Assembly (NCBI RefSeq): GCF_024707485.1
Contig: NZ_CP102602.1
Coordinates: 1-64,000, forward strand
Direction of reading: 5' to 3'
Source of the DNA: Thermococcus thermotolerans
GTDB taxonomy: Archaea; Methanobacteriota_B; Thermococci; Thermococcales; Thermococcaceae
DNA: 64,000 nucleotides
Positions 20,158 to 26,194 of the stretch are shown here, piece by piece. The notes under the pieces are model-generated. The model did no database searches, was not told the origin of the DNA, and saw only the letters and a program-made list of their open reading frames with translations. How positions within the stretch are numbered: the first letter of the stretch is position 1; each line of letters begins with the position of its first letter. Made by a program: the position numbers and the translations under genes.

Positions 20158-21315
20158 ATGATGGGGAAGAAAGTGCTGGCAATCCTCTTCGGGTTGCTGA
20201 TGGTAGGAATGCCTCTGGCCTTCAGCGATGTCAGCGCCACCACCAGCGTCACGGTGATACTTGTCAGTGACAACGTGGCGGATAAGGCCATTGCCGAGTA
20301 TTTGGCTAACGTGACTGGGGCTGTGGTTGTCACGACTACATGGGGGGTTTACGACCCAAACGTTACGGCTGAGGTTATGAGTTATGCGCCGGATGAGGTG
20401 ATAGTAATTGGTGGGCCTGATGCTGTGGTTGAGCAGTACGTGACTGACCTCCAAGAGCTTGGGATTACAGTTGAACGCTGGGGCGGTCAAAACCGGTACG
20501 AAACCAACACCATGGTAATGGAACAGGCAAGGGTAAAGTTCCAGCTCCAGTTCAACGGGAGCGTCATGGTCGCTGGAAACGACAGCCTGGCTATAAGGAA
20601 CGCCCTTCAGATCGCGGTTCAGAATGGGGCAGTGATTGTCTACGTTAACAAGAGCACCGATGTCACGGGAGTCATGGAGAGGTTCCAGGTGAAAACGGCA
20701 ACTATGGTCAAGACCCCGGCATCTGAGAAGGTCATGGAGCACGTTAAGGAGCAGCTCCGCGAATGCAACTGCACCGCCGGGGAGGTTCAGGTTAACGTCA
20801 CCAAGGAGACGGTTCTTCAGCTGATGCTTCAGGTCAGGGAGAGGGTCAGGGCAATAGAGGAAATAGCCAACGAAACCAACTCCACCCGGCTTATGCAGGA
20901 AGTCCGTGTCATGGAGATGACCATGGAGAAAGCCAACTTGGCGCTTCAGGCCGGAAACTATACCCGGGCATACCAGCTGATGCTTGAACTCCAGATTCAG
21001 ACGGAGTTTGGCCTTAAGACTGCGAACGGTGAGATGGGGGCAATGATGGAGAGGAGCGAAAAAGTTGCCCTGGAGCGCGAGATGGCAAAACTGGAGGCCC
21101 AGATTAGTGTCATGGAGAGGGCGGGAATAGACGTGGGCTCACTCAAAGCCCTGATGGAGCAGCTTAGGGTTGCGATTCAGAACGGCCAGTACGACGAAGC
21201 CAAGGAACTCATGAACCAGATAAAGGCCATGATAAGGGAGGCCTATCAGAACGGGAGGCAGGTCATCAGGGAGGGCGCTCAGAAAACCCGCGGAATGGGC
21301 TCCTCGCGGCCGTGA
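20158..21315 (+). CDS. Secreted protein with CWB2-like domain and helical C-terminus
   Basis: This 385-residue protein has a signal peptide (about 1-27, ending SDVSATT). An N-terminal half follows, resembling a cell-wall-binding repeat 2 module (VILVSDNVADKAIAEYLANVTGA, DEVIVIGGPDAVVE, RWGGQNRYET). The C-terminal half (about 215-385) is long amphipathic helix, probably coiled coil. There are several Asn-X-Ser/Thr sites. In Thermococcales such proteins are surface-associated. The strong promoter region upstream suggests abundant or controlled expression. Function beyond surface attachment is unknown. Confidence 0.82.
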   Translation: MMGKKVLAILFGLLMVGMPLAFSDVSATTSVTVILVSDNVADKAIAEYLANVTGAVVVTTTWGVYDPNVTAEVMSYAPDEVIVIGGPDAVVEQYVTDLQELGITVERWGGQNRYETNTMVMEQARVKFQLQFNGSVMVAGNDSLAIRNALQIAVQNGAVIVYVNKSTDVTGVMERFQVKTATMVKTPASEKVMEHVKEQLRECNCTAGEVQVNVTKETVLQLMLQVRERVRAIEEIANETNSTRLMQEVRVMEMTMEKANLALQAGNYTRAYQLMLELQIQTEFGLKTANGEMGAMMERSEKVALEREMAKLEAQISVMERAGIDVGSLKALMEQLRVAIQNGQYDEAKELMNQIKAMIREAYQNGRQVIREGAQKTRGMGSSRP

Positions 21316-21365: not shown

Positions 21366-21737
21366 TCAGCGGCTTGAATCAGTCCCTTTTTGCCGCTCCC
21401 TTCTCCTTTCCTTCTGCTCCCTGATGTATGGATACCTCATGATGTGGCCGCAGTTGAGGCACTTGATGACAACGTGGCCGTCTCTGAGCCTTATTCTGGT
21501 GTTGACGCCTGGGACGAGGAAGGAATGGCAGCGCTTGCAGTAACGGCGCTTCCACTTTCTTGGCATTCTGATTCTGGCCTTCTGCTGTACCGCGAGGGCT
21601 ATCTCAACGTAGCGGTTGGCTAATTCGGGCTCGTAGGGAAAGACCCTTTCCGCGAGGGTAAAGAGAACGTTTATCCTCTCTCGGGCGATCCTGCGCTTTT
21701 CCCTTTGCTCCCTCTGGCGGATGAATTTTTTGGACAT
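21366..21737 (-). CDS. rnp4: Ribonuclease P protein component 4
   Basis: This 123-residue protein is the archaeal homologue of Rpp21, which pairs with Rpp29 to help the RNase P RNA bind and cut the 5' leader of pre-tRNA. The zinc ribbon is visible as YCKRCHSFLVPG and VIKCLNCGH (two CX2C pairs, about 67-100). It is preceded by basic helices (RKWKRRYC) and ends in an Arg-rich tail. It lies 4 bp downstream of the MCM-like gene, so they are probably co-transcribed. Confidence 0.93.
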   Translation of the reverse strand: MSKKFIRQREQREKRRIARERINVLFTLAERVFPYEPELANRYVEIALAVQQKARIRMPRKWKRRYCKRCHSFLVPGVNTRIRLRDGHVVIKCLNCGHIMRYPYIREQKERRRERQKGTDSSR

Positions 21738-21741
21738 GTCA

Positions 21742-23253
21742 TCACCCTATCAGCCTGAGCTTCCCTGGGAACGGCTCATATATGTAGCCTGTGGCTATAA
21801 ACCTTTCAAGGAGTTCGGAGGCGTCTCTCTCCGAGAAGCCGTCCCTGACAAGTTCGCGGAGGAAGGCCTCCCTCGTTACCTCGTTTGAGGGGCTCACAGA
21901 GGCCAGGTCGTGGAGTATCTCCAGCGCCCTCTGAGCTTTGAGGGTTCCCGGGACGTACATGCGGTATTCCCTCAGGAGCTTTATCATCTCCGAGGGGTGA
22001 TCCCTGAGAACGACCATCCAGTCGTTTACGATGGCCTCGTTTATCAGTTTGACATCTCTGGCGGCCTTTTTGGTGACCCTACCGTTGAACCTGACGATTG
22101 ACCCGAAGAGTCTCTTGCCGAGCTCCACCCTGAGTCTGATGTTCATCGGGCCGCTGGGAGCGGTTAAAGCCCTGAACGGGTCCCCATAGTCGTCCCGCGA
22201 TTCTCTGAGCCACTTCAGGAATTCCTCCTCAACGACACGGGTCTTTTTCCTGTCAAGAGATCCCAGCTTTTCCCTCTGGGTGAAAACGGTAACGAGAAGG
22301 TTTGGTATGAGCTGAAGGAACTCCCTGTTCTCCTCAAAGTAGGGTTTTTCCTCGGAGGGCAGGAGGACAAAGGGAGCCTCTGAGACCCTCGCCATCCTGT
22401 CGAGGGGATTGGCGTCGACGTTCTTGGGGAGCAGACCAATGGCGCGCTTGCCCAGTATTCTCTCGGAGACCCACTTGGGCAGGCTGACGGTGCCTCTCTT
22501 TGTCGGCGGAGTGTAGTACCTCATGTCGCTGCCGTTAGGGTTTCCGAGCCTGAAGTCTATGCCAAGAAACGGGTCGTCTATTTCAAGAACCCGTTTTCTG
22601 GTGAGGCGAACCTCCCAGGGGAGGCTTGAGTAAAAGTACTTCAGGGCCTTCCAGAGGGCCAAGAGCCCCGAATTCTCCCGGTATTTGAACACTGTGAACT
22701 CAAACCCCTCACCCCACGCCTCTCCCGGTATATACGGGACGCCGTATATCGAGTAGATGAGGGCCTTTCGCATGTCATCACGCAGATAAACCGTTCTTTC
22801 AAACAGATCCAGCACTTCTCGTCTGCTGAGCGCAAACTCACGGTAGTCCTTCCAGTACTCCGAGTAGTCCCGCCCTTCAATGCTGGACGCGTGGATCATC
22901 CTCAGGTTTCCCCAGCGGTAGGCATCAATGACTCCTCTCACGAGAACGTAGCTACCTGGTCTTGCCCTCCCTAAGACCTTTGTCCCTTCCGTTGCCCGAA
23001 TAACCAGATACGTGCGGAAGGCGTTTCTGTCAAGGGAAGACAGTTCGGATGGCGACAGGGGAGAGAGCATGTAGTAGAGGGCATCCGCCGGCGCGTGGGG
23101 TGGCTTTCTGCCCAGCAGAAAACCGGCTATCTCGATTTCATCACCGTTTTTGAGCCGCTGGATCTTCATCTGAAACTCCTTGATCCTTTTCCCCGGACTG
23201 AGCGGCTCCCTCGTCCTCTCAAGCCTCAGCAGTTCAATCAGCTCATCCATCAT
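21742..23253 (-). CDS. MCM-like protein lacking ATPase motifs
   Basis: This 503-residue protein is not annotated by any motif I can see outright, but its order of segments mirrors an MCM helicase. There is an N-terminal OB-like region (ARPGSYVLVRGVIDA then LRMIHASSIE), a helix-rich LFERTVYLRDDMRKALIYSIYG segment like the MCM pre-sensor linker, and a VTKKAARDVKLINEAI lid-like segment. The C-terminal winged helix ends GYIYEPFPGKLRLIG, as MCMs do. There is no Walker A, Walker B or Arg finger. A non-catalytic replication or repair factor is inferred. The start may be 23253 or 23250. Confidence 0.6.
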   Translation of the reverse strand: MMDELIELLRLERTREPLSPGKRIKEFQMKIQRLKNGDEIEIAGFLLGRKPPHAPADALYYMLSPLSPSELSSLDRNAFRTYLVIRATEGTKVLGRARPGSYVLVRGVIDAYRWGNLRMIHASSIEGRDYSEYWKDYREFALSRREVLDLFERTVYLRDDMRKALIYSIYGVPYIPGEAWGEGFEFTVFKYRENSGLLALWKALKYFYSSLPWEVRLTRKRVLEIDDPFLGIDFRLGNPNGSDMRYYTPPTKRGTVSLPKWVSERILGKRAIGLLPKNVDANPLDRMARVSEAPFVLLPSEEKPYFEENREFLQLIPNLLVTVFTQREKLGSLDRKKTRVVEEEFLKWLRESRDDYGDPFRALTAPSGPMNIRLRVELGKRLFGSIVRFNGRVTKKAARDVKLINEAIVNDWMVVLRDHPSEMIKLLREYRMYVPGTLKAQRALEILHDLASVSPSNEVTREAFLRELVRDGFSERDASELLERFIATGYIYEPFPGKLRLIG

Positions 23254-23273: not shown

Positions 23274-23283
23274 ATTTATAAAT
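23274..23283 (+). promoter_or_regulatory. TATA box of 5S rRNA
   Basis: ATTTATAAAT is centred about 28 bases before the 5S rRNA 5' end, the standard archaeal spacing. The element is nearly symmetrical and may also serve the divergent MCM-like gene starting at 23253. Confidence 0.7.
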
Positions 23284-24973: not shown

Positions 24974-26194
24974 TCAAAGTCCGGCTACCTTGAGCTGTAT
25001 CCACCAGAACATGTCGCCCCAGAAGTAGCTTATCAGGAAGCCGAGAAATAGCGTCGGAGCGAATGGCATCGACTTCTTCCTCAGAAAGCTGTTTTCAAGC
25101 CTTCCCTCATCAACGAGGCGTTTGAGTTCCTCGATCTGCTCCCTGCTCAGGCCCTCCGCGCTTGAGGACGCTATGACTCTACCGTAATCCGGGTGGAGGG
25201 CGCCCAGATCGGCGTTCATGATGGCGTTCTTTATCCTTGTGAACGGGTCGATTCTGTCCCTGAGGATTTTCCCGTCCTTCTCAAAGACCGTCTCGCCCAG
25301 GATGTCCCACTCCCTGAGCTCCTCCACAGTGACCTCTTCCATCAGAACCTCGGTGCGCATGAACTTCACGAGGGAGAGGAAGACCTTGAAAAGGTACAGC
25401 ACGACGAGGAGCTTCAGAAACGCTCCCACAGCCGTTGCAGGTTCCCGATAGACCAGGTATGCCAGAACACCAACCCCTATAACATCCCCAACTCTCCTGA
25501 ACTTTCCAAGGACGTATATCATGGCGATTGTGAATACCCACGACCACAGTCCAACGATTGAGACCCCCGTGACCTCGTAGATTATCAGCCTGAGGCCTAT
25601 GGCGGCCATTATCCAGAGGGATACCTCAAGGGTGAGCCCAGCCCTGTCTATGAATATCTCCCTCAGCTCGACGAACTTCCTCCTAACGATGAGCACCCCG
25701 AAGGCATAGACGAAGATGAAGGGGAATACCGCTATGATGCTGTTGAGCAGTATAGTCAGGGGGTAGAGGGGATATCCAACAGTGTAGGGGGCGACGATGG
25801 AAGCCGTTGCCGGTGCGTAGGGCAGGAGCGCGGAAAAGCCGGCGAGTATCACCGCGTCACCGCTCGCCCATGCCCCGATGTAGTAGAGGAGCAACCCTAA
25901 GACGAAGCCCAGTACAAGCCCGATGAAGCCCGAGGCTGCTAAGAGTGCATCCCCCCGGCTGATTCCAAGGTAGAGATAGTAGATTATCCCTACCTCGACG
26001 GCCGGTATTATCAGCTTGGGAACCCACCGGGGAAGGCCTTCCTCCTCTTCTTCCCCCTCCTCCCATCCGAGGAGCTTTCCTATCAGCGTGAGCGTCGGGA
26101 AGATGTGGTTGTCAAAAACGAATCCGGTCTTCATGTCGGTATAGGAAGTAACGGCTCCCATAACCAGCCCCAGAATCAGGGGAACGTAATCCAT
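24974..26194 (-). CDS. Archaeal prepilin peptidase (A24, EppA-like)
   Basis: This 406-residue integral membrane aspartic peptidase is of the type IV prepilin peptidase family. The first catalytic Asp lies in SYTDMKTGFVFDN near 20 and the second in the SGDAVILAG (GxGD-like) segment near 112. There are roughly nine or ten membrane segments and a cytoplasmic insert of about 100 residues (290-390) before the last span. It lies 9 bp after a gene encoding a class III signal peptide pilin, its likely substrate. That pairing and the size point to EppA rather than preflagellin peptidase. Confidence 0.85.
   Translation of the reverse strand: MDYVPLILGLVMGAVTSYTDMKTGFVFDNHIFPTLTLIGKLLGWEEGEEEEEGLPRWVPKLIIPAVEVGIIYYLYLGISRGDALLAASGFIGLVLGFVLGLLLYYIGAWASGDAVILAGFSALLPYAPATASIVAPYTVGYPLYPLTILLNSIIAVFPFIFVYAFGVLIVRRKFVELREIFIDRAGLTLEVSLWIMAAIGLRLIIYEVTGVSIVGLWSWVFTIAMIYVLGKFRRVGDVIGVGVLAYLVYREPATAVGAFLKLLVVLYLFKVFLSLVKFMRTEVLMEEVTVEELREWDILGETVFEKDGKILRDRIDPFTRIKNAIMNADLGALHPDYGRVIASSSAEGLSREQIEELKRLVDEGRLENSFLRKKSMPFAPTLFLGFLISYFWGDMFWWIQLKVAGL

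Follow-up and report, generated by a model that had tools for sequence, protein, structure and literature searches.

A probable catalytically dead relative of the MCM helicase, encoded upstream of rnp4 in Thermococcus thermotolerans

What does a protein do that has kept the domain order of the replicative MCM helicase and lost the motifs by which such a helicase uses ATP? The question is raised by one gene within the first 64,000 nucleotides of contig NZ_CP102602.1 of Thermococcus thermotolerans (the whole stretch of DNA analysed here, referred to below as ‘the window’). An open reading frame (ORF) on the minus strand, 23253-21742 with its stop included, fills the interval 21742-23253 exactly and encodes a protein of 503 aa (P0001); the earlier note on this interval, which was silent on strand, had described a catalytically dead look-alike of MCM. 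Among simple models of the eukaryotic replicative helicase, archaeal MCM is the chief one; to our knowledge few regulators of MCM are known, and its loading in cells that can do without Cdc6 and origins has yet to be explained. The analysis described here makes it very probable that the gene encodes an MCM-family fold that has lost catalysis, and leads us to favour, by a modest degree, a regulator that binds MCM or DNA and is comparable in kind to the eukaryotic MCM-binding protein (MCMBP).

The kinship with MCM is carried first by predicted structure. A set of 45 orthologues was used for alignment, for the AlphaFold2 input, and for the profile and motif checks; the resulting model of the full protein has a predicted local distance difference test score (pLDDT) of 91.3, with no segment below 50, and a predicted template modelling score of 0.89. 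Comparison of this model with the PDB by Foldseek returned MCM subunits as the best 50 of 50 matches (best E 4.7e-12, probability 1.00), and the predicted fold displays both the N-terminal OB fold and the C-terminal winged helix that the earlier note had expected. OB folds and winged helices occur in many proteins; the AAA+ part (residues 130-437, without either of those domains) was therefore also folded alone. This slice was modelled with a pLDDT of 92.7, and its best 50 of 50 matches in the PDB were again MCM (best E 2.8e-5, template modelling (TM) score by query up to 0.53), with no RFC, ORC or other AAA+ protein among them. Of the single tests this is the strongest, and it concerns the part of the protein whose motifs are lost.

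A relation to MCM is also visible when profiles of the two families are compared by hhalign, in which the 45-orthologue profile was set against a profile of 37 archaeal MCMs and 60 column-shuffled MCM profiles provided the null. The alignment is collinear from the OB fold to the C-terminus, placing residues 94-500 on MCM 213-680 (P 4.2e-7; the full-length score is 63.7, and no shuffle exceeds 24.8). Without the winged helix it still gives P 1.3e-3, with a score of 36.6 where the best of the 60 shuffles reaches 23.9. The winged helix alone reaches P 7e-10 and, judged by sequence, is homologous to that of archaeal MCM: the 45-sequence profile retrieves the C-termini of MCMs across Thermococci genomes (E down to 1.5e-8, the inspected loci being MCM ORFs), the domain matches the C-terminus of MCM3 in PDB entry 8x7t (E 0.022), and the archaeal MCM winged-helix model PF21120 is touched by 10 of the 45 members (best E 6e-4), a model against which a genuine Thermococcus MCM scores just 24.1 bits.

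These comparisons also bear on the suspicion that an unrelated protein with an OB fold and a winged helix merely resembles MCM. Such a likeness would fit two results that weigh against the assignment to MCM: neither the AAA+ core alone nor the lid alone is significant by sequence in hhalign, and the TM-scores of the whole chain are modest (0.28-0.39 by query) with high root-mean-square deviations, as is expected for multi-domain chains, although this is not decisive. Yet the AAA+ slice retrieves only MCMs among its best 50 matches, and the collinear alignment lies far above the shuffles; a mere resemblance is thus highly improbable.

The hhalign placement was made without knowledge of the motif claims in the earlier note, and it puts all four of the MCM-like stretches that had been singled out there (OB end, linker, lid-like stretch and winged-helix end) at homologous positions of MCM, beyond what shuffles give. 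The end of the OB fold (‘..ASSIEGRD’) falls on MCM ‘..VNHIEQIS’, TVYLRDDMRKALIYSIYG falls on MCM SIAPAIWGHKEVKKGIALALFGG, VTKKAARDVKLINEAI falls on MCM VTREDAKEAIAIMEYAL, and GYIYEPFPGKLRL falls on the C-terminal end of MCM. In addition, the stretch from beta1 to alpha1, FTVFKYRENSGLLALWKALKYF, is placed on the P-loop stretch of MCM (LLVGDPGVAKSQILRYV).

It is at these catalytic positions that the protein departs from its relatives. A motif check, which employed a loosened Walker A pattern, covered the 45 orthologues, a plasmid-borne homologue (described below) and 11 control MCMs; in the controls Walker A, Walker B, the SRF arginine finger and the zinc CxxC were all present in 11 of 11. Walker A and the SRF(D) arginine finger, by contrast, were found in none of the 45 orthologues, nor in the plasmid homologue. 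The lost Walker A position (residues 184-210, 22624-22704 on the minus strand, as located by hhalign and the motif check) reads beta1 - KYRENSGLL - alpha1, GK[ST] being absent there in 45 of 45, and SE[AT]PF occupies the position of SRFD. In the same 46 proteins no Walker B stands in place (three chance matches to a hydrophobic residue followed by DE sit elsewhere) and no zinc-ribbon CxxC occurs, 40 of the 45 orthologues being without any cysteine. Some 60 residues separate alpha1 from the sensor-1 strand, and in them the DSSP of the model shows a single short hairpin (222-237); the helix-2 insert and the presensor-1 hairpin of MCM are therefore probably not both intact. The loss of both Walker motifs and of the arginine finger, first noticed in a single sequence, thus holds in all 45 orthologues and the plasmid homologue, and there is good support, from structure prediction, from Foldseek and from profile-profile comparison, for describing the protein as one of MCM architecture that is ‘catalytically dead’.

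Five parts of the protein, all on the minus strand, can be delimited. Two N-terminal helices (residues 1-35, 23149-23253; DSSP helices 2-13 and 20-32), far shorter than domain A of MCM, precede an OB fold without zinc ribbon (residues 36-130, 22864-23148), which is placed by the model strands at 39-128, by hhalign on the OB fold of MCM, by conservation, and by the Pfam OB fold PF01336, matched by 15 of the 45 members (best E 8e-4); the MCM_OB model PF17207 gave no match to it. The degenerate AAA+ core (residues 131-330, 22264-22863), defined by the slice model, Foldseek and the motif check, includes the linker/alpha0 helix and the lost arginine finger position. It is followed by a helical lid-like bundle containing VTKKAARDVKLINEAI (residues 331-437, 21943-22263; DSSP, and hhalign on the MCM lid) and by the C-terminal winged helix (residues 438-503, 21745-21942), for which the matches were given above.

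Searches of reference collections with the protein returned little. A single-protein Pfam scan found no match at E<=10, an NCBIfam scan and a phmmer search of PDB sequences found nothing credible, and scans of PHROGs and PADLOC found none; a match to NCBIfam ChlP (E 8e-4) was rejected as chance, at 18 bits against a cut-off of 505 bits, as were the PDB matches to RNAP2 and cytochrome c peroxidase. Homologues of the family were sought in viral contigs and phages, where there were none, in 152 genomes of another archaeal phylum, where a search run without positive control found none, and in other Thermococci families, where the MCM winged helix itself was the only match; a contig-wide genome scan gave matches only in Thermococcales/Thermococci records. 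No unrelated family, therefore, claimed the protein with confidence in profile searches, as might have overturned the earlier assignment, and the profile-profile comparison points to MCM. No description of the family was found in the open-access literature on inactivated or Walker-less archaeal MCMs and Thermococcales MCM paralogues; subscription papers were outside this scope, and a prior mention is possible.

Orthologues, which the earlier note had proposed to seek across Thermococcales, are present in 79 of 94 Thermococcaceae genomes, in all six genera and with no internal stops; 66 of the 74 good-quality genomes carry the gene. Ratios of nonsynonymous to synonymous substitution of 0.06-0.13 between close relatives indicate purifying selection. 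Identity across the family is 33-45%, against mostly 65-90% for neighbouring genes. The most conserved stretches lie in the OB fold (GFLLxRKPP, YYLLSPLSPSEL) and at the end of the winged helix (GYIYEPFPG), a distribution that points to binding surfaces.

The eight good-quality genomes without the gene comprise six of genus g12 (probably Pyrococcus, judging from its gene content), G019, which is a small Thermococcus, and G092, which probably has an assembly gap, since rnp4 was not found there either. Seven of the nine g12 genomes are without the gene (six well assembled, the seventh, G070, fragmentary) and two have it. In one of these two, G064, the order is rtcB - MCM-like gene - rnp4, whereas in the six well-assembled losers rtcB and rnp4 are directly adjacent: the gene has been cleanly lost in most of the genus, and the replisome of Thermococcales does not require it everywhere. 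As a separate observation, rtcB (RNA ligase) stands directly upstream of the MCM-like gene or of rnp4 in g12 genomes (L044:2439-5189, L164-L167), and in several of them it carries an intein (916-aa ORF in L044).

Immediately downstream in the window lies rnp4 (RNase P Rpp21/Rnp4; 21366-21737, minus strand; PF04032, E 1.6e-20). Its ATG is found 4 nt past the end of the MCM-like ORF, its GGTGAT ribosome-binding site overlaps the stop codon of that ORF, and the MCM-like gene is usually 5' of rnp4 in genomes that bear it. The earlier note had called the two genes co-transcribed; their adjacency is borne out, and cotranscription itself, judged from the gap, the overlapping site and the conserved order, is likely. 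A TATA-like box, TTTATAAAT, some 20 nt upstream of the ATG (23274-23282, minus strand), may be the promoter of the two-gene unit, given the spacing of Thermococcus promoters (PMC4247193).

Such an arrangement could mean that the protein is an accessory factor in RNA or tRNA processing, which works with RNase P and has turned an MCM scaffold (whose OB fold and winged helix would bind RNA) to that purpose. The probable cotranscription with rnp4 in most genomes would suit it, as would the rtcB - gene - rnp4 order in G064 and a gene reading like tRNA-guanine transglycosylase which the MCM-like gene follows in one g11 genome. In g11 and g15, however, the gene is retained with rnp4 located elsewhere; the six g12 genomes that keep rtcB - rnp4 without it show that RNase P does not need it; the upstream genes vary between Thermococcus groups; and the plasmid copy is without such neighbours. 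Because the adjacency is not universal and losses leave rnp4 in place, a dedicated role in RNase P, the link to which comes from gene order only, is quite unlikely.

A member of the family also occurs on a plasmid. Plasmid THER333_p of T. nautili (NZ_OX281346.1, 36600-38132) encodes a homologue of 510 aa (27.7% identity over 84%) that shares both the architecture and the motif loss of the chromosomal family, and that is followed by a MinD-like ATPase and by a protein whose match to a zinc finger is weak. The plasmid also encodes a 436-aa protein that belongs to no known family (L127:13455-14765); its gene runs about 50 nt into the start of the MCM-like gene, of whose product it may be the partner. 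MCMs of an ancient clade are found in Thermococcales viruses, in six families (PMC12934983), and a derivation of the present family from the MCM of a mobile element is possible; a tree cannot separate cellular from virus or plasmid ancestry, and so cannot back the word ‘paralogue’ of the earlier note, because identity is 10-15% and the winged helix has 65 residues.

From such an origin the protein might have become a replication inhibitor, which enters the MCM rings of plasmids or viruses as a dead subunit or occupies their origins. The plasmid homologue, the rapid divergence relative to neighbouring genes, the patchy loss, and the habit of viruses and plasmids of bringing their own MCM, seen in the six virus families, are all in keeping with that role. 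Against it stand the lack of a defence neighbourhood or a PADLOC match, and a conserved chromosomal place beside rnp4 under strong purifying selection, unlike typical arms-race genes; we consider an inhibitor unlikely.

A third proposal is that the protein acts on its own as a DNA-binding factor of initiation or restart (through its OB fold and winged helix), for example by aiding the loading of MCM without Cdc6 and oriC. T. kodakarensis can replicate without Cdc6 and origin (PMC5663688), a single origin has been established for Pyrococcus (PMC3984812), from most of which, if g12 is that genus, the gene is missing, and the isoelectric point of the window protein is 9.5. That correlation, however, is a single event in one genus of inferred identity, DNA binding is putative, isoelectric points in the family span 5.5 to 9.5, and T. 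kodakarensis itself is a presumed carrier of the gene. We regard the proposal as distinctly improbable.

The explanation that we prefer, a dead MCM-family protein acting as a regulator that binds MCM or DNA, starts from the loss of ATP-using motifs: a protein so altered cannot unwind or translocate, and must presumably act by binding. It would hold MCM subunits through its retained AAA+ and OB surfaces, or DNA through its OB fold and winged helix, or both, and would thereby control the number of MCM rings that are put together, kept in store or set on DNA; binding to the MCM ring as the mode of action is about as probable as its opposite. The proposal of the earlier note, that the protein could cap, load or regulate the active ring, is reasonable on this view. 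The analogy is with MCMBP of eukaryotes, human cells included, an MCM-like protein without Walker A that is thought to promote the assembly of MCM2-7. Whether the archaeal protein works like MCMBP is, by this analogy, about evenly balanced, and family membership is not claimed. That the gene heads a two-gene unit with rnp4 would probably reflect transcriptional economy only.

Several findings weigh against this explanation, besides the structural and profile scores considered above. Nothing was found that ties the gene physically or genetically to MCM or GINS, and it is not beside replication genes; the MCMBP model of Pfam (PF09739) is not among the matches at E<=10 for the 45 members, and was found in none of seven genomes searched without positive control; the neighbours in some genomes (rnp4, rtcB, the probable tRNA transglycosylase) belong to RNA processing; and the loss from seven of nine g12 genomes and one Thermococcus shows that the MCM system works without the gene. 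A bolder version, in which a dead MCM protein governs the assembly or loading of the homohexameric ring as an archaeal MCMBP-like system, and may help to explain how Thermococcus loads MCM without Cdc6 or an origin, is speculative, and we would place it on the doubtful side.

Elsewhere in the window, a gene on the plus strand (20158-21315), convergent with rnp4 and kept in only part of the genus, encodes a protein that is predicted to be secreted and that combines long coiled coils with repeats of a cell-wall-binding-like kind, and one on the minus strand (24974-26194) encodes a 406-aa membrane protein resembling an archaeal peptidase of the prepilin/preflagellin type into which a soluble segment is inserted. 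The cellular MCM of the same genome is a single ORF of 2126 aa (G000:C1:1174265-1180642; L097:265-6642), which must carry several inteins; ORFs of 1000-2700 aa occupy the MCM locus in many relatives.

The closest known relative is the cellular MCM of Thermococcales (for example MCM3 of T. kodakarensis, TK1620), the best structural match, with which the protein shares the order OB - AAA+ - lid - winged helix. Archaeal MCM, however, has 680 aa against about 500, and differs in its full domain A (here two helices), its zinc ribbon, Walker A and B and arginine finger (all missing here), and its helix-2 insert/presensor-1 hairpin region (here much shortened); the present family has proved dispensable in evolution. 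The viral and plasmid MCMs of Thermococcales (including MCM1 and MCM2 of T. kodakarensis, and TKV4) are likewise MCM-family proteins besides the replicative MCM, and both groups have members on mobile elements; they are drawn with zinc and Walker motifs, are longer, and often bear an N-terminal DNA-binding extension (PMC12934983), unlike the family described here.

Eukaryotic MCMBP (also termed ETG1 or Mcb1) is likewise a non-motor relative of MCM. It is drawn with a Walker B and an arginine finger (PMC9018068), neither of which the archaeal family has, and the latter gives no match to the Pfam MCM_bind model of MCMBP. Among archaea, inactivated RecJ homologues and PolB paralogues, although different enzymes, offer a parallel: they are dead copies of enzymes of the replisome that have been retained, presumably in structural roles (PMC3307487, PMC3984812). 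A dead MCM relative that is under strong selection in most Thermococcaceae and unannotated in Pfam, NCBIfam and the PDB would be a regulator open to immediate test, since the genus is genetically tractable; it would add MCM to RecJ and PolB as archaeal replisome enzymes with inactivated copies, and would provide an archaeal comparison for MCMBP.
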